From Collimonas arenae (GTDB lineage: Bacteria > Pseudomonadota > Gammaproteobacteria > Burkholderiales > Burkholderiaceae_D), in NCBI RefSeq assembly GCF_001584165.1, contig NZ_CP013233.1, positions 3,728,620 to 3,792,619 on the forward strand: 64,000 bases of DNA, in the 5' to 3' direction. This document shows, in pieces, positions 9,641-37,860 of the stretch. How positions within the stretch are numbered: the first letter of the stretch is position 1; the number at the start of each line of letters is the position of its first letter. Position numbers and translations under genes: made by a program. The notes beneath the pieces were generated by a model that did not search any database, was not told where the DNA came from, and saw only the letters and a list, made by a program, of their open reading frames with translations.

Positions 9641-11257
9641 ATGTCTTCCAGCCGTTCCCCGTTCTCCAATCGCCGCCATTTCCTGCGCAATGTCACCGCC
9701 GGCGCCGGGGCGCTGCTGACCGGTACGGCATTGGGCCCGGCCCTGGCTCAAAGCGGGGCACCGGCTCTGATTACATCAGAAAGGATGCGGCCACAACTTC
9801 CCAGCGGCGTCATGAGCGGGGATATCACACGCAACAAGGCGGTGATCTGGAGCCGTACCGACCGCCCGGCAAGGATGGTGGTCGAATATGCCAATAACCA
9901 AGCTTTCCGCGATGCCCGTACAGTGAACGGCCCGCTGGCGCTGTCCAGCAGCGATTTCACGGCGCGGGTAGATCTCGGCGGGCTACCTGTCGGTCAAACG
10001 GTTTTCTATCGGGTGCGTTTCCAGGATATCCAGAATGCAACGATCTATAGTGAGCCCTTGAGCGGCAGCCTGCCGATTCCGGGTGGCATCGAGCGCGATA
10101 TCACATTTGCCTTTTCCGGCGATGAAGCCGGCCAAGGCTGGGGTATCAACGAAGCCTGGGGCGGCTACAGAATTTATGAAACCATGCGCCGCTTCAAGCC
10201 CGATTTCTTTATTCATTCTGGCGACCAGATCTATGCCGATGGCGTGATCGAGAAAGAAGTCAAGCTGGACGACGGCACGCTGTGGCAAAACCTGGTAACT
10301 CCCGCCAAGTCGAAAGTGGCCGAGACGCTGGATGACTATCGCGGCAATTTCGCCTATAACCTGCTGGATCTGAACAAGCGCCGCTTTGCTGCCGAAGTGC
10401 CATTTCTGGTGCAGTGGGATGATCACGAGGTGCGCAACAACTGGTATCCCGGACAAACCATCGGTGCTGCCGAAAAGCGTTACCAACAGCGCGACCTGTC
10501 GACGCTGGCCGCCCACGCTAAGCGCGCGATGTTCGAATACAATCCTTATCGGATCGAACCCAGCGACCCGGAGCGGGTCTACCGCATGTTCAACTATGGG
10601 CCGTTGCTGGAAGTATTCATGCTGGACGAACGCAGCTATCGCGGCGCCAATTCGCCAAATCGCCAAACCGTGCTGAACAAGGATGCCGCTTTCCTCGGCG
10701 CCTCGCAGCTGCGCTGGATCAAGCAAGCGCTGTTGCGCTCACGCTCGACCTGGAAAGTGATCGCCAGCGACATGCCGATCTCAATCGTGGTGCCGGATCT
10801 CAACCCGGACGTGCCGACAGGCACCTACGAGGCCTGGGCTAACGGCGACAACGGCAAGCCGCTTGGACGCGAACTGGAAGTCGCGGAGTTGCTCAAATTC
10901 ATCAAACGGCACAATATCAAGAACGTGGTGTGGGTGACCGCCGACGTGCACTACGCTTCTGCTACCTACTACTCGCCGGAAAAAGCCAGCTTCACCGATT
11001 TCAAGCCGTTCTGGGAATTCGTCGGCGGACCGCTGCATGCCGGCACGTTCGGCCCCGGTGACATCGACCGCACCTTCGGTCCTGACGTGCGCTACGTCAG
11101 CATCCCCAGCGACATGAAGCAAAATCGTCCGCCCAGCGAATTGTTGCAATTTTTCGGCGTCGGCAAGATTGACGCCAGGAGCAAAATAATGAGCGTTTCC
11201 TTGCACAATGTCGATGGCAAGGATTTATTCAAGGTTGACCTGCACCCTGAAATTTAG
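9641..11257 (+). CDS. PhoD-like alkaline phosphatase, Tat-exported
   Basis: A 538-residue phosphodiesterase/phosphatase of the PhoD family. A twin-arginine signal (NRRHFLRN at about residues 10-17, hydrophobic to about 36) sends it folded to the periplasm. The N-terminal PhoD beta domain (about 45-145, with GVMSGDITRNKAVIWSR) is followed by the metallophosphatase core. Visible metal-site segments are FAFSGDEAG, FIHSGDQIYADG (SGDQIYAD type), VQWDDHEVRNNW and VVWVTADVHYASA. These indicate an Fe/Ca-dependent catalytic centre. Length is normal for the family. It would release phosphate from organic esters; no Pho box was searched for. The gene stands alone after the YceI terminator. Confidence 0.92.
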   Translation: MSSSRSPFSNRRHFLRNVTAGAGALLTGTALGPALAQSGAPALITSERMRPQLPSGVMSGDITRNKAVIWSRTDRPARMVVEYANNQAFRDARTVNGPLALSSSDFTARVDLGGLPVGQTVFYRVRFQDIQNATIYSEPLSGSLPIPGGIERDITFAFSGDEAGQGWGINEAWGGYRIYETMRRFKPDFFIHSGDQIYADGVIEKEVKLDDGTLWQNLVTPAKSKVAETLDDYRGNFAYNLLDLNKRRFAAEVPFLVQWDDHEVRNNWYPGQTIGAAEKRYQQRDLSTLAAHAKRAMFEYNPYRIEPSDPERVYRMFNYGPLLEVFMLDERSYRGANSPNRQTVLNKDAAFLGASQLRWIKQALLRSRSTWKVIASDMPISIVVPDLNPDVPTGTYEAWANGDNGKPLGRELEVAELLKFIKRHNIKNVVWVTADVHYASATYYSPEKASFTDFKPFWEFVGGPLHAGTFGPGDIDRTFGPDVRYVSIPSDMKQNRPPSELLQFFGVGKIDARSKIMSVSLHNVDGKDLFKVDLHPEI

Positions 11258-26842: not shown

Positions 26843-28033
26843 GTGAAATTGAAAGTCCTATCCATCTTTGGTACACGCCCGGAGGCCGTCAAAATGGCTC
26901 CGGTCGTCAAGGCGCTCTCGCGCGAAGCAGGCATCGAATCGCTGGTCTGCGTCACGGGACAGCATCGACTCATGCTCCAGCAGGTACTGGACCTGTTTCA
27001 GATCAAGGTCGATCACAGCCTGGATGTCATGCTGCCGAACCAGACGCTGAACGGCTTGAGCGCACGCCTGATTTCCTTGCTCGATCCAGTGCTGGAAGCT
27101 GTCAAGCCGGATCGGATCCTGGTGCATGGCGACACCACGACGGCGATGATGGCGGCATTGGCGGCCTTTCATCGGCGCATACCGGTGGCGCATGTCGAAG
27201 CCGGTTTGCGCACCGGCGATCTGAGCCAACCCTGGCCGGAAGAAATGAACCGCCGCTTTGTCGATGTCGTCAGCGATGTGCTATTTGCCCCGACCGCCGG
27301 CGCCAAAGCCAATCTCGCCGGAGAACATCTGGCCGGCCGCATCATTATCACCGGCAATACGGTGATTGATGCATTACGCCTGACCACCGAGCAGATAAGT
27401 AAGGATGCGCGGCTGCGCCAAAACCTCGACTCTCACTTCCCCTATCTCGAATCAGGTCGCAAGCTGCTGCTGGTAACCGGGCATCGGCGTGAGAATTTTG
27501 GCAATGGTTTTGCGGAAATTTGCGACGCGCTGGCAAAGCTGGCGCGACGCTCGGATATACAGATCGTCTATCCGGTGCATCTGAATCCGAATGTGCAAGG
27601 GCCGGTACAAGCAGCGTTGTCGCACCTGCCGAACGTCCATCTGATCGAACCGCTGGATTATTTGCTGTTTGTACGTTTGATGCAGCGCGCCCATGTAATA
27701 CTGACAGATTCCGGCGGCGTGCAGGAAGAGGCGCCATCATTGGGCAAGCCGGTACTGGTAATGCGCAACGTCACCGAGCGTCCGGAAGCGGTCGCTGCCG
27801 GCACGGTACAGTTGGTTGGCACCGATTCGGCGCGTATTGCCGCTGCGGTTGACCGGCTCTACGATGACGACGACGCCTGGCAACAGGCGACCCATCGCCT
27901 TAATCCTTACGGTGACGGACGCGCATCGGAGCGGATCGTCGATGTGCTGTGCGAAAGATCCATGGATGAATTCGGGGTGGAGAAGTTTGATCAACTAGAA
28001 CAAGCGACACTGCTGGCAAAAGCATCTCAATAA
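26843..28033 (+). CDS. wecB: UDP-N-acetylglucosamine 2-epimerase (non-hydrolysing)
   Basis: A 396-residue enzyme converting UDP-GlcNAc to UDP-ManNAc in the cytoplasm. It has a GT-B-like fold: N-terminal IFGTRPEAVKMAPVVKAL, VHGDTTTAMMAALAAF, HVEAGLRTGDLSQPWPEEMNRR, GNTVIDAL, TGHRRENFG and the UDP site DSGGVQEEAPSLGKPVLVMR with TERPEA. All are hallmarks of the non-hydrolysing class. The start is GTG 26843. It opens the polysaccharide locus, followed 32 bases later by the synthase. No UDP-ManNAc dehydrogenase (wecC) is nearby, so ManNAc rather than ManNAcA would be the expected product. Confidence 0.93.
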   Translation: MKLKVLSIFGTRPEAVKMAPVVKALSREAGIESLVCVTGQHRLMLQQVLDLFQIKVDHSLDVMLPNQTLNGLSARLISLLDPVLEAVKPDRILVHGDTTTAMMAALAAFHRRIPVAHVEAGLRTGDLSQPWPEEMNRRFVDVVSDVLFAPTAGAKANLAGEHLAGRIIITGNTVIDALRLTTEQISKDARLRQNLDSHFPYLESGRKLLLVTGHRRENFGNGFAEICDALAKLARRSDIQIVYPVHLNPNVQGPVQAALSHLPNVHLIEPLDYLLFVRLMQRAHVILTDSGGVQEEAPSLGKPVLVMRNVTERPEAVAAGTVQLVGTDSARIAAAVDRLYDDDDAWQQATHRLNPYGDGRASERIVDVLCERSMDEFGVEKFDQLEQATLLAKASQ

Positions 28034-28065
28034 ATCCGGCAACCGATCAATGCAGGGAGTCGATT

Positions 28066-29535
28066 ATGCGTTACCCGCTTCATGTGCTGCGTCAGGCAGC
28101 GAGATACGGATGCTTGTCTGCTCCATGTGCATTATTTCCCGCCATTGCAACGGCATCTGAACAACAAGCACCGCCGTTGCATTTCGACCTGCGCCTGATC
28201 GAGCTGGACCTGATTACAGCCATCCTCGGCTTTCTCATCTTCCTGCTAGTCATCTATACGATGCGGCACTACCTGTTCACCGTTAACCGCCTGTTCGGCC
28301 GGCAGCGTCAGCCCTATCTCGACATTGAGCAGGCCTCCTGGCCGCAAGTGGTTGTCTGCGTTGCCGCCCACAATGAAGAACGGGTGATTGCCGACGCCTT
28401 GCATGCCCTGCTCGAAGTCGACTACCCGCGCGACAAGTTGATCATCATGCCGATGAACGACCGTTCTACCGACGGCACCCGCGAAATCATCGATCGCATC
28501 GCTGCAGAAAATCCCGACCGTTTCATGCTGTTCCATCGCAGCGAGGGACGCCCAGGCAAGGCCGCCGCATTGCGCGACGCCACAGAAAAAATCCAGGCTG
28601 AAATCATCATCGTGTTTGACGCCGATTATCTTCCGGCGCGCGGCCTGATCAAGCAGTTGGTAGCGCCATTCTTCGATCCGGAAGTCGGCGCCATCATGGG
28701 GCGGGTCGTTCCCATCAATGCCGGCGCCAACCTGTTGACACGCCTGCTCGACCTGGAGCGCGCCGGCGGTTATCAGGTCGACCAGGCGGCACGCATGAAT
28801 CTTGGCCTGGTGCCGCAGTATGGTGGTACCGTCGGCGGCGTGCGACGCTGCGCGCTGGAGGAAATCGGCGGCTGGAATATCGACATGCTGGCCGAAGATA
28901 CCGACGTCACGTTCCGTCTATTGCAGCACGGCTGGAAAACCGTGTATCAAAACCGTTCCGAATGTTATGAGGAAGTGCCCGAGGTATGGCCTGTCAGAAT
29001 CAGGCAGATTAGCAGATGGTCGCGCGGCCACAACCAGGTGATGGGCCGCAACCTGATGCGCCTGCTGAGAAATCGCCGCATCAGCCTGCGCGAAAGAATC
29101 GACGGCGCATTGTTGCTGTGCGTCTTCATCATGCCGCCGCTGCTGCTGGTTGGCTGGGCGCTGACCATCATCCAGTTCTTCATGACCTCGCACCAGTGGT
29201 TGTTCGGCTGGCTGGCTCTGAGCGGCATGGTGGCCTATGGCGCATTCGGCACCAACGCAGCCTTTTTTGAAATGGCCGCCGCCACCTACCTGGACGGCAA
29301 TCGCAACCGCATCCGCCTGCTGCCACTGAACATATTCGGCTTCTTGATCAGCCTGGTCTCCATCTCTCGTGCAGCGGTCAGCCAAATCCTCGATGCGATA
29401 CGGAAGCGCGAACTGGTCTGGCACAAAACCGAAAGATTCAGGAGCTCTCCAGCCTCGCCGATCCAGGACCTGATGTCTCCATTGGACAGCACACCGGTCA
29501 TCGCGCCGACTACGCTCAGCGAGAAGGCATCTTGA
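28066..29535 (+). CDS. Processive family 2 glycosyltransferase (polysaccharide synthase)
   Basis: A 489-residue inner-membrane synthase resembling NodC/IcaA/BcsA-type GT2 enzymes. An N-terminal hydrophobic helix (about 50-68) is followed by the catalytic domain: NDRSTDGT (131-138), DAD (185-187) for metal/UDP binding, the catalytic-base segment AEDTD (266-270) and QISRW (304-308), the Q-x-x-RW motif of processive enzymes. Three or more C-terminal helices (about 340-440) would form the translocation channel. There is no PilZ domain. It sits between the UDP-GlcNAc epimerase and the polymer-forming protein; its stop overlaps the next upstream reading. It probably polymerises a UDP-HexNAc sugar (inference). 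Confidence 0.9.
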   Translation: MRYPLHVLRQAARYGCLSAPCALFPAIATASEQQAPPLHFDLRLIELDLITAILGFLIFLLVIYTMRHYLFTVNRLFGRQRQPYLDIEQASWPQVVVCVAAHNEERVIADALHALLEVDYPRDKLIIMPMNDRSTDGTREIIDRIAAENPDRFMLFHRSEGRPGKAAALRDATEKIQAEIIIVFDADYLPARGLIKQLVAPFFDPEVGAIMGRVVPINAGANLLTRLLDLERAGGYQVDQAARMNLGLVPQYGGTVGGVRRCALEEIGGWNIDMLAEDTDVTFRLLQHGWKTVYQNRSECYEEVPEVWPVRIRQISRWSRGHNQVMGRNLMRLLRNRRISLRERIDGALLLCVFIMPPLLLVGWALTIIQFFMTSHQWLFGWLALSGMVAYGAFGTNAAFFEMAAATYLDGNRNRIRLLPLNIFGFLISLVSISRAAVSQILDAIRKRELVWHKTERFRSSPASPIQDLMSPLDSTPVIAPTTLSEKAS

Positions 29536-29537
29536 AC

Positions 29538-30605
29538 ATGTTGTTTCCGGCGCTATTGCTATTCAGCGTGATCTCCATCCTTTTCGTGCCATTCATTCCA
29601 GCTGTGGCCGAGTGGCTGCGTCCTACCGACGTTGCGCCGCTGCCGGTGCGCAGGAACGAAGTCAACAATCTGCGTTATTTTGCCGACAGCTTTCGCCAGC
29701 GCATTCTCAATATGCCAGACGTCGATTTCACAAAGCTGCGGCTTTTACAAACTGACCGCACCGTCAGCATCGGCGACAACCTGAACATCGTGCACCAGCA
29801 GGTCGGCGGCGGCAACGCCGTCGACTACCATCCTGCGACGTTGAACATACTGCAAAAAACGAACGGTATCGTCATTTTCGTGCACGATGCAGTCTTGCCG
29901 CCGGGTAGCCAGACCCAAGCTGACCTGTTCGCAGCTTCCAATCTTACCGTCGGCGAAGGCGCAAGCCTGCGCGCCTGCTCGGCGCAAGGCGTCATCACAC
30001 TTGGCGCCGAAACGGTCGTGCATCGCTGGATCGATGCGCCTTGCATCCATGTCGGCAGCAACGCATCGATTGACGGACGCATTACCGCGCTCACGGAAAT
30101 CAACTTCTCCACCAACAGCAGATTCGTGCGGGCCGGCGCGCCGGACATGCGCTTCGGCACATCCGTCAGCACCGCCGAAGCAGCACCGCCGGCGCGTTCT
30201 TTCCGGGTGCGACATGTTCTCGATGACGGTGCGCAGCAATCGCCGCAGGCTATCCAGAACGGCGATTTCGTGGTGCGCGGGCCCTACCTGATCCGCTCGG
30301 GCACAACGGTATTCGGCAACATCAAGACATATGGCGATTTGCAGCTGGAACAAGGAACTGCCATTGCCGGCAGCATCGTTTCTAACAATAATATTGTGCT
30401 GGCGCGAGGATGCTCCGTACTCGGCCCGGTGATCAGCCAGAACGATATCGTCATCGGCCCGGATTGCCGCATCGGTACGCCAGATGCCCCCACCACCATG
30501 ATCTGCAGGAAATTATCCATTGCCGCAGGCTGCATCGTGCATGGCGTGATAACGACCCAGGACGGCGCGACGGTAATACCGACGGAGACAAACCATGCGA
30601 CCTGA
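29538..30605 (+). CDS. Membrane-anchored polymer-forming (bactofilin-like) beta-helix protein
   Basis: About 355 residues. One N-terminal transmembrane helix (about 3-22) is followed by a repetitive region in which short strands and Gly/Asn turns recur: VSIGDNLNI, LTVGEGASL, IHVGSNASIDGRI, then GTTVFGNIKTYGDLQL, GTAIAGSIVSNNNIVL and CSVLGPVISQNDIVIG. This pattern is that of polymer-forming cytoskeletal / bactofilin-type left-handed or right-handed beta helices. ATG 29538 (GAGAAGG 10 bases upstream) is preferred over TTG 29532. Inside a polysaccharide operon it may scaffold the synthase complex. The family call is moderate, the role is inference. Confidence 0.7.
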   Translation: MLFPALLLFSVISILFVPFIPAVAEWLRPTDVAPLPVRRNEVNNLRYFADSFRQRILNMPDVDFTKLRLLQTDRTVSIGDNLNIVHQQVGGGNAVDYHPATLNILQKTNGIVIFVHDAVLPPGSQTQADLFAASNLTVGEGASLRACSAQGVITLGAETVVHRWIDAPCIHVGSNASIDGRITALTEINFSTNSRFVRAGAPDMRFGTSVSTAEAAPPARSFRVRHVLDDGAQQSPQAIQNGDFVVRGPYLIRSGTTVFGNIKTYGDLQLEQGTAIAGSIVSNNNIVLARGCSVLGPVISQNDIVIGPDCRIGTPDAPTTMICRKLSIAAGCIVHGVITTQDGATVIPTETNHAT

Positions 30606-31680
30606 TCCGCGTCGCGCGACACGCGTTGTGCAAGCCATGCGAACGACATCGGCGCGGCTGCTTGCAGCCATCGGCTTACTCAGTCTCTGCCACATGATGC
30701 CCGCGATCGCGGCAGACAATTCCCCGGACGCTCCCATGTTTGCCGATTTTTCTCTGCCCAATGGCGCCATCACGGTCTTCGCAAAAGGCGATTATGTCGA
30801 ACCGTATTTCGCGCTGAAAGCCTTGTTGGCAGCGCATCGCCTGGGCGTCGACGTGACCCAGACAACCTCGGCGTTCGCCCATTGGCTACTACCGTTCCAG
30901 CAGGCTAACGGCCCCTTCCCTCGGGTCTGCCGCAGCGGCGCCAACGATTGGCTGGCCTGCGGACCAGCCGACGCCGACGATTGGCTGGCCTGCGGACCAG
31001 CCGACGCCGACGATTCTCTGGATGCGCTCTGGTGCCTGGCCGTAGCGGAAATCCTGCCGGGCGATAAGGTATTGGCCGCCAGTTGCACCAGGTCGCTGGA
31101 AAACCTGGCAACCCTGTGGAATCCTGCGCAGCAAACTTTTCGTGCCTTGTCCGGCGGCAGTGCGGCCTATTTTGCCGATAACGTCGAGGTGATCGGCGCG
31201 CTCGCCTATTTGCGCCGCGATCGCGCAGCAAGCAGCCGCTTTGCCGTACAGCTGGCGGCGTTGCCCAGCGTGGCGGGCATGCAAAAAGGGCTGCGTCAAA
31301 ATTATGGCTACGATCCGAATGGTGCACTCGAGCCGGAACGCGCCAGCGTACCGCCCACGCCCTACGGCTTCTATCCGAATGCGGTGGCGCCGGTTTATCT
31401 ATGGCTGTACCAGCTACGCAGCGGCGCCAGCGGCGAGCGCTACTGGCAGGTCTGGAAAGAGCGCTACGGTGAAAAATGGCTGGCCGGTGAAAGCGATCAT
31501 TTCCCGTGGGGGTTGATCGCCTGGGCTGCCTATCTCGCGGGGGATCAGGCAAGCGCACGCGCTTGGCTCAAGAATGCCGATGCCTGGCGCCTTGCGGGCC
31601 GCTGGAATATCGTCGAAGAAGGCGTGCGGACGGGCCTGAGCCATGCACTGCAATCTTCCGCCGCGGAGAAATCGCCATGA
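30595..31680 (+). CDS. Exported helical protein of unknown function (possible alpha/alpha-toroid)
   Basis: A 361-residue protein with an export signal (hydrophobic about residues 22-40, ending AIAADN). The mature part is helical and Trp-rich, with recurring LA-x-WL, DSLDALWCLAVAEIL, FYPNAVAPVYLWLYQL and DHFPWGLIAWAAYLAGD segments. These are reminiscent of six-hairpin glycosidase-like toroids, but no catalytic signature is recognised. An 11-residue unit (DWLACGPADAD) is repeated exactly. ATG 30595 has GGAG 7-8 bases upstream and overlaps the preceding gene by 11 bases. It could process or bind the polymer in the periplasm (inference). Confidence 0.7.
   Translation: MRPDPRRATRVVQAMRTTSARLLAAIGLLSLCHMMPAIAADNSPDAPMFADFSLPNGAITVFAKGDYVEPYFALKALLAAHRLGVDVTQTTSAFAHWLLPFQQANGPFPRVCRSGANDWLACGPADADDWLACGPADADDSLDALWCLAVAEILPGDKVLAASCTRSLENLATLWNPAQQTFRALSGGSAAYFADNVEVIGALAYLRRDRAASSRFAVQLAALPSVAGMQKGLRQNYGYDPNGALEPERASVPPTPYGFYPNAVAPVYLWLYQLRSGASGERYWQVWKERYGEKWLAGESDHFPWGLIAWAAYLAGDQASARAWLKNADAWRLAGRWNIVEEGVRTGLSHALQSSAAEKSP
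30946..31011 (+). repeat. Perfect 33-bp tandem duplication inside the coding region
   Basis: Two identical 33-base units (30946-30978 and 30979-31011) encode DWLACGPADAD twice, in frame. Identity at the DNA level implies a recent duplication or ongoing slippage. Confidence 0.9.
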
Positions 31681-33530
31681 GCACCGCGGGCCGCAGCAAA
31701 TGGAACAAGGTATGGTTGACGCTATTGGTGATCGCCATCGTCGGCGCCGCCGCCATCTGGATTGAGCGCATCCGAGAAATCGCTCCGGCGCGCTGGTCGA
31801 GCGACGCCATCGCACTGATCCTACCGGACAACCTGTCTGAAGCGAACCGCCTGTATGCATCGGCGTGGCTGGACGCCGCGTCTGAAGAAGGCATCCGGCT
31901 GGAAACTGTTACGGCATCGGAATTCGCACGACGTGGCTTACAAGGTGAACGTCCGTTTGCCGGCGCGATACTGCCCGATACCATCCACCGCCAGATCAGC
32001 ACCGCCTTCGTCAACCAGGTCAGTCGTTTTGTGGAGCACGGCGGCGCACTGATGCTGGTCGGCGATGCCGGCGTACTGGATGAGAACGGCTACTATACGG
32101 AACCGGCGTCGCGCTTTTCAACGCTGGCCGGCATCCCCTATGCCCTGTATAGCAAGCTGCACGACAAGATGTCGTTCAACCCCACCATCTCCGGCAGCCC
32201 GCAGATGATGCAGGCGTTGAATCTGCCGCCGGGACGCTGGATCGAAAGCGACGGACAGGCTGTCGTATCCGGCTACGGCGAAGATACCTTGCGCTACCCG
32301 GTCCTGCACACCGGCGACACCTATACCGGCACGATACGCATGCAGGCCCAGGGAAAAACAGTGATTGCCGGTGAACATGCATTCGGCAAAGGCCAGGTGC
32401 TATTCATCAACCTGCCGCTGGGCTACCTGAAACTACGCACCGACGGTATCCTGATGCATGGCTTCCTGCATTATTTTGCCAACCGCATCATGGGCCAGCC
32501 GCAATTGTCGGCCGCGCCCGAAGCGATCGGCGGCCTGGTGCTGAACTGGCACTGCGACGCCAAGATATGCATTCCGGCTATGGAACAGCTGATCAAGGCC
32601 GGCGTATTCAAGCGCGGCCCGTTCAGCATTCATGTGACTGCCGGGCCGGACCAGCGTGAATTCGGCGATGGCCTTGGCGTCGACCTGAACAATAACAAGC
32701 CATTCCAGGAAACACTGCGCAGCCTGCTTGAGCAAGGCAATGAAATCGGCAGCCACGGTGGCTGGATCCATGACTGGTTCGGCAAGCATCTGTCCGACAG
32801 CAACGAGGCGCAAATGACCACCTATCTGGAACAGAATGCGGATGCGATCAAGCGCCTGATCGGTCACGACCAGACCGAATATTCTGCACCTACCGGCAAC
32901 CAGCCGGCCTGGGTCACCGAATGGCTCGATGCGCAGCATGTCGAAGCCTATTATTTCACCGGAAATATCGGCCAGGGGCCGACCCACACCTATCGCGACG
33001 GCCGCCGCGATGGTCATATCTGGTCGTTCCCGGTGCAGACCTACGGCCACATCAGCACCATCGAAGAAGCCTACACCGAACATATCCCGGAAAGTGAAAT
33101 CAGCAGCTGGTTGACTTCACTGGTGAAATTTACAGAGAATACCGGCCAGATACGATTGATTTACTTCCATCCGCCAGGAGCTGTCCTGTATCCCGACGCC
33201 ATCAACCAGCTGATGCTCGCCGCCGACGCCGCCACCAAGGAGGGCCGGTTCCGCTGGCGTACCATGACTGACCTGGCGAACTTCATGAGTCGCCGCGAGC
33301 AGACCGTGTGGAACATTTCCAGCGGCAACCAGGCCGTGGTGATCGACGCCGCCAATGCCGCCTCGCTGAACCAGTTGACCTGGCTATTTTCCACCTCGCT
33401 GTACGCGGAGCCGCAAATTATCGCCGGCAACGCCAAGGTAGAACAGCGTGGCGACACCTGGGCGGTGATCGCCGCCGACGTCAAGCAACTGCGCATTTCA
33501 ACACCGTTGATAAAGAAGGCACCGCATTGA
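31677..33530 (+). CDS. Membrane-anchored two-domain polysaccharide deacetylase-like protein
   Basis: A 617-residue protein. One N-terminal helix (about 12-29) anchors a periplasmic part. An alpha/beta domain (about 40-275, AIALILPDNLSEANRLYASAW, HGGALMLVGDAG, HAFGKGQVLFINLPLGY) is followed by a NodB/CE4-like barrel (about 285-535). The likely active-site residues are Asp294 (NWHCDAK) and His360/His365 (SHGGWIHD), with YSAPTGNQPAW as a third motif. A beta-rich tail (about 540-617) follows. This is an atypical member: motif 1 is not the usual TFDDG. It would de-N-acetylate the nascent polymer. The start overlaps the preceding stop (ATGA), with GGAGAAA upstream. Confidence 0.8.
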   Translation: MSTAGRSKWNKVWLTLLVIAIVGAAAIWIERIREIAPARWSSDAIALILPDNLSEANRLYASAWLDAASEEGIRLETVTASEFARRGLQGERPFAGAILPDTIHRQISTAFVNQVSRFVEHGGALMLVGDAGVLDENGYYTEPASRFSTLAGIPYALYSKLHDKMSFNPTISGSPQMMQALNLPPGRWIESDGQAVVSGYGEDTLRYPVLHTGDTYTGTIRMQAQGKTVIAGEHAFGKGQVLFINLPLGYLKLRTDGILMHGFLHYFANRIMGQPQLSAAPEAIGGLVLNWHCDAKICIPAMEQLIKAGVFKRGPFSIHVTAGPDQREFGDGLGVDLNNNKPFQETLRSLLEQGNEIGSHGGWIHDWFGKHLSDSNEAQMTTYLEQNADAIKRLIGHDQTEYSAPTGNQPAWVTEWLDAQHVEAYYFTGNIGQGPTHTYRDGRRDGHIWSFPVQTYGHISTIEEAYTEHIPESEISSWLTSLVKFTENTGQIRLIYFHPPGAVLYPDAINQLMLAADAATKEGRFRWRTMTDLANFMSRREQTVWNISSGNQAVVIDAANAASLNQLTWLFSTSLYAEPQIIAGNAKVEQRGDTWAVIAADVKQLRISTPLIKKAPH

Positions 33531-34651
33531 ATACTTTCACCCGTAACGAAGGCGTTCGCCATCCCGCTCGCCGCAAGACATCGATTGCAGCAACGGCGCT
33601 AGCCGCATTGGGCATCTCCTTCAGCTGTGCAACCTGTGCCGCCGCTGACGACGATTTCCCGGTGCAAGTGCCCGATTTCCAGCACCCACGCCTGCTGTCG
33701 ACGCAAAACGTGTCAGCAACGCCGGAGGCACAGATCGCTTCGGTTGCGGTCCCTGCTCCAGCGGTTCCGCCTACACAGCCAGCAGCGACAACAATCGATG
33801 TTCACACCAATGAAGCCACCCCAGCCGCGCCAGTCGCGCCCAGTGGAGCGCCCGCCAACGCTGTCCCGGCTGTTGCATTCGATGATCATGTCGTCCCTGT
33901 CGCGCCAGCCGAAGCGCCTGCCGCCGTACCGGTAGAACTGCCTCCCGAACGCGCTGCGCTCGAACTGATTGGCGGCGACGGCAAGATGACCAACGGCTAT
34001 GGCTATGCCCGTGCATTCTCGCTACGCGGCATGGCAGTGACGTCGGCCGGTGTGCTACAGGGAGAATTGACGCAGCAGTCCCGCTTCGGATTTTCGGGAA
34101 ACTATGGCAACGTCTCGCTGACGCACGATTTCTCCGAAGACTATTACACCAATGTCGGCGTCGGCATTGGCAATAGCCCGCTGTTCCCCAGCTGGCGCGT
34201 CGACGCCACCGGATACCGCAAATTCGGCAGCGAACGCCAGTACGTCGCCGGCGTTGGCGCTTACTATGCGAAGGGCAATGAAATCGAGCGCTCCGACCAG
34301 GGCCTGCTGTTCACCGGCCTGGCCTATTTCAGCGGCATGGTGATAGAAGGCGGCGTGCGCCTGAACTGGGCCAATCCCGGCGACATACTCGGTCCCAGCG
34401 AATACGTAGCTGCCACCTTCGGCAACGACGATCATCGCGCCATCATCATTCGTTACGAACACGCCAAGGAAACCTACAAGGTATTGCCGGGCGGTCCTGA
34501 ACTGGTGAACTTCAAGAGCAACACGATCAACGTCCAGCTGCGTCAAAGAGTAAGCCGGGACAGCATGCTTCTGGCGGGGCTGGAATACTACCTTAGCCCA
34601 GTCTACGATCGGCTCTCGCTCAATCTCGGCTGGCGCTGGAGTCTTAGATGA
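33527..34651 (+). CDS. YaiO-like outer-membrane beta-barrel protein
   Basis: A 374-residue protein. A signal peptide (about 18-40) and a Pro/Ala-rich spacer (about 55-145) are followed by a C-terminal barrel (about 150-374) of alternating strands: FGFSGNYGNVSLTHDFSEDY, VDATGYRKFG, YVAGVGAYYAKG and VIEGGVRLNWANPGD. It ends in LNLGWRWSLR. It resembles YaiO-type outer-membrane barrels found in sugar export loci. The likely start is TTG 33527, which overlaps the previous stop (TTGA) and has GAAGG 7 bases upstream. It probably provides the outer-membrane exit for the polymer, although no TPR scaffold is present, unlike BcsC, AlgK or PgaA. Confidence 0.75.
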   Translation: MNTFTRNEGVRHPARRKTSIAATALAALGISFSCATCAAADDDFPVQVPDFQHPRLLSTQNVSATPEAQIASVAVPAPAVPPTQPAATTIDVHTNEATPAAPVAPSGAPANAVPAVAFDDHVVPVAPAEAPAAVPVELPPERAALELIGGDGKMTNGYGYARAFSLRGMAVTSAGVLQGELTQQSRFGFSGNYGNVSLTHDFSEDYYTNVGVGIGNSPLFPSWRVDATGYRKFGSERQYVAGVGAYYAKGNEIERSDQGLLFTGLAYFSGMVIEGGVRLNWANPGDILGPSEYVAATFGNDDHRAIIIRYEHAKETYKVLPGGPELVNFKSNTINVQLRQRVSRDSMLLAGLEYYLSPVYDRLSLNLGWRWSLR

Positions 34652-35547
34652 AACCGAAGCAGGATGCTGCGGCCGATGCAACCGACGCGGAGCAACTGTC
34701 GGACGCGGCAAGCGGCATGCCTGACGGCGCACTGCCGATCAAACCCGGTAAAAGACAAGCACGTGACAAGCCACGCCGGCGCGCTGTGATCAACCCTCGT
34801 TTCGCCGGCTTTGGCGGCCAGTTGATACAAACGCACCGCGCCCTGCGACGTCTACCCTTCCCTCCCGGCCGCTGGGTCGATGTCTTGCTGGTACCGGCCG
34901 TCATCTTCTTTTGTACACTGCTGGCCTGGCCCTGGATTGCCGAGCTATGGGCGGCAATCATCAGGTTCTGGGCCGACGGCCTCGGTAGCGAAGTGCTGTT
35001 GAAGGCCGACAAGACGTCCTTCCCTGGAATTGACACCGTACCTTACGCCTACGTTCAGGCCGCGCTTCCCGATCCGCTGCAGTGGTGGAGCGGCATGTTG
35101 ATCACCATCGCGCTGCTGTTCGGCACCACCCTGCTTCCCGCACGCATGTTGCCGATATCGTATGCGTTGCGCGTGGTTGGCATCATCCAGGCGGCAAGCC
35201 AGTTCTATTTCTTTTTCTGGGCGGCCGAATTTCCGTATCAGTCGGCCTCGTCCATCTCCGCACTCACACAATCGTCGACCGTGCTGATCCTGCTGACGCC
35301 ATGGATCTACGCACTGTTGTACAACATCTTCGACTTTGGCATTGCGCGCAAAATACTGCTGGCGCTGATCGCCGTTCTTTATCTGATTGTGCTGACACCC
35401 TTCCAGTACACGTTCGCGGCCTGGATCATGCTGGAATATTCGCTGCTGTGGCATCCACTGATCTACCTGCTCGGTTCCAGCCTGCTGCAGTTCGGCGCCT
35501 TGGTCGGGTTTTACTCCTGGGCCATGAGCTGGAAGCGCCGCGAATGA
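34648..35547 (+). CDS. Multi-pass inner-membrane protein of the polysaccharide locus
   Basis: A 299-residue protein. A basic, disordered N-terminus (about 1-70, many Lys/Arg) precedes about six hydrophobic helices (starting near 76, 150, 178, 208, 232 and 262). The family is not recognised. The start overlaps the stop of the barrel gene (ATGA) with TGGAG upstream, so it belongs to the operon and is its last gene. A charged cytoplasmic tail plus membrane domain would suit an accessory subunit of the synthase, as PgaD is to PgaC, but the sequence shows no resemblance I can name. Confidence 0.65.
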   Translation: MKPKQDAAADATDAEQLSDAASGMPDGALPIKPGKRQARDKPRRRAVINPRFAGFGGQLIQTHRALRRLPFPPGRWVDVLLVPAVIFFCTLLAWPWIAELWAAIIRFWADGLGSEVLLKADKTSFPGIDTVPYAYVQAALPDPLQWWSGMLITIALLFGTTLLPARMLPISYALRVVGIIQAASQFYFFFWAAEFPYQSASSISALTQSSTVLILLTPWIYALLYNIFDFGIARKILLALIAVLYLIVLTPFQYTFAAWIMLEYSLLWHPLIYLLGSSLLQFGALVGFYSWAMSWKRRE

Positions 35548-36032: not shown

Positions 36033-36625
36033 TTATGAAGGCAGGTACAAGGGATAGAGAATGTTTTCTTCGCGGGTTATGCGGTCAACCAGCACCTTGC
36101 CGAGATTTTCAAACTCGCTCTTGAAACCGGTACGCGCATCCGGCCGCAGCAGCCAATCCTTGCCCTGATATTTATCGAAAAATCAAACGCAACGCGCCCG
36201 ATTCCGTCCATTTCCCTTTTATAGGAACGATACACTTCAAGCAAATTCGGCTCTTCTGCCAGATTGCGCCGCATGTACGAATACAACTTGACGCCTTCGG
36301 TCAGCAAATGGCCATACATCGCCATGCGCATTTCGCGCAATGCCCCCGGAATGCTTTCCCAGCTATCGGAGCTCATCTTGTTCGCCACCGACGAATACAT
36401 CAACAGCAATGCGGCATGATCGCCCTTTAACTGGGAAATCAGTTTTTCGTCGTATTGAATCTGGTTGTTGGCGGAGCTTGCCGCCGGTTGCAGTTCTGGC
36501 CGGGCCGGAGCGGCAGCCCTGACTGGCGGCGGGGACGAAGGGGCCGCCGGCGTTCCCGCCGCGCGCAGCCTTTCCTCATCTTGGTCAACGGTTGCGGATT
36601 TATTGAAAATGGATTTCAGCCACAT
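36033..36625 (-). pseudogene. Hemerythrin-like domain protein, frameshifted
   Basis: An N-terminal Pro/Ala linker (about 20-50) is followed by a hemerythrin-like four-helix bundle. QLKGDHAALLLMYSSV and MAMYGHLLTEGVKLYSYM carry the expected His and Glu ligands. After RVAFDF, near 36178-36182, the frame breaks in a run of T on the minus strand. Adding one T restores FFDKYQGKDWLLRPDART and a proper C-terminus with REENILYPLYLPS ending at TAA (36033-36035), including the last His/Glu-type ligand segment. As read, the protein ends in unrelated sequence (stop near 36077). Such domains bind oxygen or iron. A sequencing indel is as likely as true inactivation. Confidence 0.8.
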
Positions 36626-36895
36626 GGTTCACCTCCCCCTTTTTACCGATAGGAATTGCGCCGCTCTCGAACACGTTTCAAATTGTCGTGTTTCCGCGAA
36701 GATAATACATTAATTCCCAATGGAAACATATTTCTCAAATGTAATTTTTATGTGTGCATGCACGCCTTCCCCCATTCAGCAAATCCGCGGCCGCAGCGTA
36801 TCCGTTATCCATCTTTTTGGGCGGAGCGCCCGGGTGGAACAGTTGCAGTCCCACCCCGACAGCAGGCTAATTTCTCAGCATGCCTGGTTTACCCG

Positions 36896-37669
36896 CTACT
36901 TCGCCCGGCTTTGCAAGGCGATCAGAAGGCTGTCCCACAACTGATGCCGTTCGTTGATGGCGCTGATCCCTGCCTCCAGCACCTCCCGCAGCTGGATCGG
37001 ATCGCCCCCGGTAATCTCGTTGATCATCCGCTCCGCTGCTGGACCGTGATCCCCGGAATCCACTTCGATGTGCCGCTCCAGATAGAAATTAAGCTGCGGC
37101 ACGGCGGCCGGATCAATCTGCCAGGTATTCAACAGCGCCTGGAACATCTCCGGTATGACATTCTCCCGTCCATAAAAAAAACTGCCGACGACCTGATGCG
37201 TCTCAGCCCTTTTGCAGGTAGTGATCGTCGCGTTGACAAACCGCTGAACCGCCGGCTCCACTTCAGCCCGGCCCAATGCAGCCGAAAGTGGATCGCCTTT
37301 CTTGATGACGTTCAGGAACTGATTGATCTGTCGTGTCGACGCGCCGATTTCGGTCATCGCAGAAAGGTAAAGATCGAAATGCGTCATGGGTCCATGCGGC
37401 GTCATGTCGGACTCCTCACCCAGCACGATTTCGTTGATCAGGCGCGCTGCATTAGGATTCGCTGGCGGATACCACGGGATGGACACCGTGGTCAGGTCAC
37501 ACTGGAGCCGTTTCACCAGCGACATGAAATCCCAGACCGCAAAAACATGCCATTCCATGAACACGCGCAAATCGTCCATCGTGCGGATGGCGGAAAAAAC
37601 TGCATGGTTGGTCAGCAGCGTGTGTTTTTCCTTGATGCTCAGTTGAAGTGACTCAATGGTAGTTGCCAT
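36896..37669 (-). CDS. DUF3050 family protein (heme-oxygenase-like fold)
   Basis: A 257-residue cytoplasmic helical protein matching DUF3050, a family with a heme-oxygenase/TENA-like bundle. Typical segments are DLRVFMEWHVFAVWDFMSLVKRLQ (about 35-58), WYPPANPNAARLINEIVLGEESD (about 66-88), HFDLYLSAM, FFYGRENVIPEMF and the conserved YLERHIEVDSGDHGPAAERM. Repeated His/Glu/Asp residues in these segments could bind a metal. The start is set at ATG 37669 rather than the longer reading because the family begins here. A 14-bp perfect palindrome lies 23 bases upstream. The function of the family is not established. Confidence 0.85.
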   Translation of the reverse strand: MATTIESLQLSIKEKHTLLTNHAVFSAIRTMDDLRVFMEWHVFAVWDFMSLVKRLQCDLTTVSIPWYPPANPNAARLINEIVLGEESDMTPHGPMTHFDLYLSAMTEIGASTRQINQFLNVIKKGDPLSAALGRAEVEPAVQRFVNATITTCKRAETHQVVGSFFYGRENVIPEMFQALLNTWQIDPAAVPQLNFYLERHIEVDSGDHGPAAERMINEITGGDPIQLREVLEAGISAINERHQLWDSLLIALQSRAK

Positions 37670-37691
37670 GTTATCTCCACAAGTTAAGTTA

Positions 37692-37705
37692 CACACAATT
37701 GTGTG
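37692..37705. promoter_or_regulatory. Palindrome CACACAATTGTGTG, possible operator
   Basis: A perfect 14-bp palindrome lies 23 bases upstream of the DUF3050 start, in the region where a promoter should be. The cognate regulator is unknown. Confidence 0.4.
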
Positions 37706-37860
37706 CGTGATAACACTGGCAGATATATTTCCATGTGGCAACTAACAATTTCAAGAATGCAACAAACATCGCGACGCCAAAACTCGGTACAAGGTATTTG
37801 CGAAATCTGACATCTTCTGCAAAGATGCAGCAATGACAATCCGCAGGAAAGAGCATCCGC

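Follow-up and report, generated by a model that had tools for sequence, protein, structure and literature searches.

A candidate synthase-dependent exopolysaccharide locus with its own UDP-GlcNAc 2-epimerase in Collimonas arenae

We examined a stretch of 64,000 nucleotides (nt) of Collimonas arenae (contig NZ_CP013233.1, positions 3,728,620 to 3,792,619; hereafter the window), whose source genome is a single contig of 4.72 Mb. The open reading frame listing of the window places seven genes, A to G, head to tail on the plus strand at 26849-35547 (Table 1), and we refer to this candidate polysaccharide gene set as the module. From A to G the intervals are 32, 2, -11, -4, -4 and -4 nt, negative values being overlaps, and because of these tight gaps and overlaps the seven genes very probably form one expression unit, which bears out the coupling of seven same-strand genes claimed in an initial annotation of this DNA. 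Gene A most likely starts at TTG 26849 (MKVLSIFGTRPEA), which matches its relatives and has GAGGG directly upstream; on the same grounds, GTG 26843 is less favoured. The start of C was corrected to ATG 29538, a start of E at 31506 was dropped in favour of ATG 31677, and F starts at TTG 33527, overlapping the stop codon of E.

Table 1. Genes of the module, with positions in the window. GT2, glycosyltransferase family 2; UDP-GlcNAc, UDP-N-acetylglucosamine.
Gene	Product	Position	Strand	Basis
A	Non-hydrolysing UDP-GlcNAc 2-epimerase (WecB type)	26849..28033	+	TIGR00236; start from relatives and upstream GAGGG
B	Processive GT2 polysaccharide synthase, inner membrane	28066..29535	+	Pfam/NCBIfam, motifs, hydrophobic segments, tree grouping
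C	Bactofilin-like beta-helix protein with N-terminal membrane anchor	29538..30605	+	Bactofilin profile, anchor
D	Exported (alpha/alpha)-toroid glycoside-hydrolase-like protein (MGH1-like)	30595..31680	+	
E	Membrane-anchored, probably periplasmic NodB-like deacetylase with extra N-terminal part; optional	31677..33530	+	Polysacc_deac_1, conserved motifs
F	YaiO-family outer-membrane beta-barrel, presumed exit pore	33527..34651	+	TIGR04390, PF19413
G	Polytopic membrane protein, presumed synthase partner	34648..35547	+	Predicted helices, presence at 23/23 loci

Families were assigned by profile scans against Pfam (matches listed at E <= 0.1) and NCBIfam. Protein A scored 457.4 bits with the wecB model TIGR00236 (cut-off 210) and is expected to produce UDP-N-acetylmannosamine (UDP-ManNAc). 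Protein B has one GT2 domain and one motif set, comprising D132, DAD at 185-187, ED at 277-278 (as AED) and QISRW at 314-318, and these motifs are invariant in all 10 rows of alignment A8, window included; the DAD, ED and Q-x-x-RW signature first read from the DNA was thus recovered in full. The best named model for B was PgaC at 134.7 bits, far below its cut-off of 422.3, and CelA gave 78 bits against a cut-off of 699. Neither PilZ nor MshEN matched B in Pfam, and PilZ, TPR, BcsB and MshEN were not listed for any of the proteins A to G. The claim that the parts differ from those of cellulose and poly-N-acetylglucosamine (PNAG) loci therefore holds; Pel and alginate domains were likewise absent from the Pfam and NCBIfam tables of A to G, to which that comparison is limited.

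The remaining proteins ranged from clear family members to proteins recognised through their relatives or their fold. Protein F matched TIGR04390 with 163.5 bits (cut-off 32) and PF19413 with 62.2 bits, in agreement with the outer-membrane barrel proposed earlier; YaiO was the sole family matched, and Pfam gave no TPR match. Protein E exceeded the Polysacc_deac_1 cut-off (PF01522, 27.5 bits against 23.1) and had no match to the NCBIfam PgaB model. Its motifs NWHxDA, HGGWIH, EYSAPxGN and HP are conserved in alignment A5 and partly varied in the wider alignment A10, where H360 and H365 are invariant (7/7 rows) and D294 is kept in 6/7, the exception being L037; we take D294, H360 and H365 to be the metal-binding aspartate and two histidines of NodB-like deacetylases. 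Window C scored 25.6 bits with Bactofilin (PF04519), slightly below the cut-off of 27.9, while eight of nine rows of alignment A9 (window included) matched at E <= 0.01 and the Escherichia fergusonii protein passed the cut-off with 31.0 bits. The basic residues following its anchor suggest that the beta-helix of C is cytoplasmic. Window D had no Pfam or NCBIfam family match on its own; among its relatives in alignment A7, 15 of 45 rows matched MGH1-like PF22422 (E <= 0.1). The predicted fold of D agrees with this family, being a toroid closest to the methylmannose polysaccharide hydrolase MmpH, and its fold matches include BcsZ, the (alpha/alpha) periplasmic hydrolase of cellulose systems. D had earlier been described as an exported helical protein, of which export stands and the identity is now refined to a glycoside-hydrolase-like toroid. 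Protein G had no Pfam or NCBIfam match, and a fold search gave no convincing one; its model has seven long helices (predicted local distance difference test score 83.7), four of which exceed the hydropathy threshold.

To describe the distribution of the module, we counted a locus if its synthase reached at least 590 bits and read the neighbourhoods of the 23 distinct loci so defined. They comprise Collimonas loci (window, L001, L002, L003, L005, L022 and L038-L041), two Acidobacteriota metagenome-assembled genomes (MAGs; L006 and L007), loci of other Burkholderiales from five genomes in five families (L021 and L033-L037), a Cupriavidus megaplasmid (L061), an E. fergusonii plasmid (L062) and three E. 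coli chromosomes (L064, L065 and L066). A fragment (L004), a lone GT2 of 121 bits (L008), a module broken by contig ends (G004) and the duplicates of L005 and L003 (L042 and L053) stand outside the counts. Loci were retrieved via B, via G or, for two E. coli loci, via module DNA, and the presence of B and G therefore comes partly from selection. C, D, F and G were found at 23/23 loci, the epimerase frame at 22/23 and E at 17/23 (split over two frames in L007).

The neighbourhood search for the same gene order that had been suggested at the outset found A-B-C-D-E-F-G kept at 13 loci, namely the window, eight other Collimonas loci, L006, L007, L033 and L034; L001 retains this order apart from a deleted A. 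In both Acidobacteriota MAGs all seven genes stand in identical order by tblastn, at identities to the window of 60-61% for the GT2, 47-52% for the epimerase, 37-40% for E and 25-35% for the remainder. Because the same order recurs in these MAGs at 25-61% identity, the seven-gene arrangement is far beyond chance. Elsewhere the order is shuffled, to B-C-D-A-F-G-E in L036 and to C-A-F-G-acyltransferase-D-B in Escherichia, and linkage persisting through such reshuffling is the strongest sign of a single function. The core consists of A, B, C, D, F and G, and E is an optional tailoring part, since it is present at 17/23 loci and an acyltransferase occurs in the Escherichia modules; the deacetylase call itself is refined in this respect. 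In a tree, the module synthases group together (support 89/91), apart from PgaC, BcsA and NfrB.

The module is rare and patchy, as expected for a moving gene set. Among the eight loci found initially, five were from Collimonas, with synthases 83-84% identical to that of the window, and of the other Collimonas genomes (G001-G014) 10/14 contained B. G was found in 7/399 genomes at the order level, including the window's own and one other Collimonas, and B in 4/398 at the phylum level (the window's own, one other Collimonas and two further Burkholderiales); these samples scored at most six and three candidate stretches per genome, respectively, and may undercount. For E. coli, a search of 5426 genomes gave three with the module synthase.

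The E. fergusonii module (L062 6581-13206) lies on a plasmid typed as conjugative. In the Escherichia modules (L062, L064, L065 and L066) the acyltransferase is present and the deacetylase absent, a phosphoadenosine phosphosulfate reductase gene adjoins the module, and each module brings its own wecB. A near match of the K-12 wecB of enterobacterial common antigen (ECA) is present in 5375 of 5426 E. coli genomes. Directly downstream of the module of E. coli A41 (L066 10719-11560) lies a gene of the polysaccharide deacetylase family whose annotation gives it a frameshift.

Other relatives and neighbours were seen around the loci. The surroundings of the L036 module (G265) include a pair of E-type deacetylases and another D-type match, weaker than the first, and downstream of an Acidobacteriota module (L007 17204-18811) a 535-residue protein matches the D profile weakly (44 bits). 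A relative of E lies on a separate contig of G050 (L063 8333-10543), whose module is without E. The minus strand of the window carries, at 36077-37741, two genes that converge on the module: one matches hemerythrin below the cut-off (E 0.0026), the other is a DUF3050 gene.

The case for ManNAc starts from the epimerase. A is the only epimerase found in the window's genome, where the second match spans only query residues 198-319 (E 2.3e-5). A WecC-like dehydrogenase was not found there: the one nucleotide-sugar dehydrogenase above cut-off is nearest the UDP-glucose type (TuaD 472 bits, WecC 136.5), and there is therefore no sign in this genome of a branch to N-acetylmannosaminuronic acid. In the passages cited from PMC8669469 and PMC8669472, infection of E. 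coli by phage N4 depends on NfrB and WecB, with WecA and WecC dispensable, and a polymer of ManNAc is the authors' proposal, the NfrB/WecB genetics pointing to the use of UDP-ManNAc; the epimerase reaction is described in PMC8669469 as reversible, so that both UDP sugars remain. The Acinetobacter PGR locus is likewise read as making a ManNAc polymer in the part of PMC12507263 that describes it.

Only one of the 23 loci, L001 of Collimonas sp. OK607 (genome G794, with the same matches as G014), has lost the epimerase: an internal deletion at about 9800-9966 leaves only both ends of the gene. The OK607 genome carries a 72% identical epimerase elsewhere, inside an nfr operon, where it is followed by a GT2 with MshEN that shares 39% identity with NfrB of E. 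coli across 722 columns, with an NfrA_C/TPR protein beside the GT2; the protein in the place of YbcH has a sub-cut-off DUF4434 match and gave no BLAST alignment with E. coli YbcH. NfrB (E <= 1e-40) was found in 4/22 genomes, all Collimonas (G006, G007, G009 and G014), and was not found at that threshold in the window's genome. The four operons are L049 (7284-13844, for which domains were determined), L050, L051 and L052, and two of these genomes, G006 and G014, carry the module synthase as well. The epimerases of the Collimonas loci and of the nfr operons are sisters (100/100), separate in the tree from those of the other module loci, whereas the two sets of synthases do not cluster, and a common clade for every module epimerase is rejected by the approximately unbiased (AU) test (p 1.2e-5). 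Because of this disagreement between the two trees and the AU result, the epimerase gene seems to have been exchanged between the module and nfr systems, each of which still keeps one.

The gene content, linkage and conservation of the locus, with the family matches and the fold predicted for D, are the observed basis for its interpretation. We consider it likely that the seven genes encode a complete apparatus of their own for making a synthase-dependent exopolysaccharide, in which UDP-ManNAc derived from A is polymerised by B and exported via F. The substrate, the polymer, its deacetylation and the roles of C, D, F and G we infer, the roles from family, fold and place. In the cytoplasm, A would convert UDP-GlcNAc to UDP-ManNAc, which B would polymerise while threading the chain across the inner membrane, with G assisting there and the bactofilin-like C serving as a scaffold that keeps B in position. 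In the periplasm, D may trim the chain and E may strip some of its N-acetyl groups, before F would release the polymer through the outer membrane; the tailoring slot of E would be empty or filled by an acyltransferase in other lineages. The locus thus probably fits a ManNAc-based exopolysaccharide, with ManNAc and de-N-acetylation as predicted features.

Several observations weigh against this interpretation. The best named model for B, PgaC, represents a synthase of a GlcNAc polymer, so UDP-GlcNAc could be the donor for B and a minor sugar the purpose of the epimerase. A single epimerase is a feature of the window's genome and some others only, since further ones are present in the carriers G002, G006, G014, G050, G135, G265 and G316; the apparent natural complementation of a lost epimerase comes from a single genome; and the group submitted to the AU test was chosen after the tree had been seen, in a tree with long branches. 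The support for the synthase grouping is only moderate, with very long outgroups, and in one Collimonas module (G012, L022 6029-7533) the synthase is interrupted by an internal stop, with the rest in another frame. E is missing at 6/23 loci, window C falls under the Bactofilin cut-off and window D is without a Pfam match. The count for the ECA wecB holds for the E. coli genomes as a whole and not for the three module-bearing strains individually.

These points give some room to a polymer of GlcNAc, PNAG- or chitin-like and partly deacetylated, with the epimerase acting as a metabolic valve or feeding another glycan. PNAG, too, undergoes deacetylation, and B has PgaC as its nearest named model and is 29% identical to E. 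coli PgaC over 251 residues. We nevertheless regard this explanation as unlikely, given a score far under the PgaC cut-off, an epimerase that is linked at 22/23 loci, apparently even after swaps, and is present on the Escherichia plasmid, and a window genome that yielded no second epimerase and no WecC-like enzyme. Somewhat less probable again is a heteropolymer in which a single GT2 with dual specificity combines ManNAc with GlcNAc or another sugar. A single GT2 can indeed use two donors, as hyaluronan synthase does, but B has only one GT2 domain and one motif set. The reversible epimerase, as PMC8669469 describes the reaction, would leave both UDP sugars at hand for such an enzyme. A further explanation, compatible with a ManNAc exopolysaccharide and not exclusive of it, is a surface- or wall-bound glycan, such as a sheath or a holdfast-like anchor, placed by the bactofilin-like protein in lieu of a secreted slime. 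Bactofilins position envelope synthesis in other bacteria, and C is present at 23/23 loci; the outer-membrane barrel and the lack of a recognised anchoring gene among the seven (Pfam/NCBIfam) make this very improbable.

Compared to these alternatives, we favour the ManNAc exopolysaccharide machine, and we lean slightly towards a wider proposal, that NGR and PGR are joined by the module as a third class of ManNAc-based synthase-dependent exopolysaccharide, one that differs in structure and moves horizontally. Such a class would have a six-gene core, including a scaffold protein resembling bactofilins, an MmpH-like enzyme that trims the chain, a TPR-less YaiO exit pore and a new membrane partner, together with an exchangeable tailoring slot for a deacetylase or an acyltransferase, and would have spread between phyla and onto plasmids. 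Synthase-dependent polysaccharides such as cellulose, PNAG, alginate and Pel make up many biofilm matrices. ManNAc-type systems have been proposed only recently, as phage receptors, and the module adds one with differing export parts. Its presence in Acidobacteriota, Burkholderiales and, rarely, Escherichia, including one plasmid typed as conjugative, may alter surface glycans and hence biofilm formation and phage range. The module also suggests a role of YaiO barrels and a bactofilin-like protein in polysaccharide export; if the third-class proposal is true, the YaiO barrel family gains exopolysaccharide export as a function. The module can be put to the test in a soil bacterium, where it forms a single operon beside which no second epimerase is known.

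An undescribed synthase-dependent locus with a linked epimerase, as first proposed, is a coherent description of the module: a search of the open-licence literature, with subscription papers and preprints outside it, found no account of the seven genes. The initial annotation was right about the locus and missed that ManNAc-type systems, NGR/nfr and PGR, had already been proposed; its interpretation as a whole is partly supported. Several known systems share parts with the module. Cellulose bcsABZC likewise has a GT2 synthase and an (alpha/alpha) periplasmic hydrolase, whereas the module lacks PilZ, BcsB and TPR matches and B falls far short of CelA. PNAG pgaABCD of E. coli has a GT2 synthase, a deacetylase, a periplasmic glycosidase part and an outer-membrane pore; in contrast, module B is far below the PgaC cut-off, E is without a PgaB model match and F without a PgaA-type TPR, and of six module profiles only that of B matches the K-12 pga stretch (132 bits). 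The K-12 yaiS-yaiP-yaiX-yaiO stretch resembles the module in its GT2 (YaiP, with 25% identity to B across 210 residues), YaiO barrel and putative deacetylase, and a yaiX fragment, from a gene interrupted by IS2, matches the module C profile weakly (15.7 bits); no epimerase, D or G match was found in that stretch.

The two ManNAc-type systems, too, are among the closest known. PGR of Acinetobacter baumannii, whose proposed ManNAc polymer serves a phage, shares with the module a GT2 synthase (PgrC), a WecB homologue (PgrF) and a putative porin (PgrG), and would be set apart by its description, in the part of PMC12507263 cited, as having a BcsB homologue (PgrD) and a protein resembling the PgaB C-terminus (PgrE); A to G of the window have no Pfam match of the BcsB or PgaB-C type. 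NGR of E. coli (nfrB-nfrA-ybcH and wecB/nfrC) resembles the module in combining a processive GT2, a WecB-type epimerase and an outer-membrane pore, and its epimerase is often linked in other species according to the cited section of PMC8669469. It differs in the C-terminal MshEN of NfrB for cyclic di-GMP, unmatched in B, in NfrA, a TPR protein with its own barrel (NfrA_C) where F matches YaiO only, and in its third protein YbcH, to which the sole match of A to G (E <= 10) covers 11 residues. E. coli NfrB scores only 12 bits with the module B profile and, unlike NGR, the module has the bactofilin-like C, the glycoside-hydrolase-like D, the deacetylase E, the YaiO barrel F and the membrane protein G. 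The idea of a ManNAc polymer therefore has its precedents in NGR and PGR, and what is new here is the machinery.

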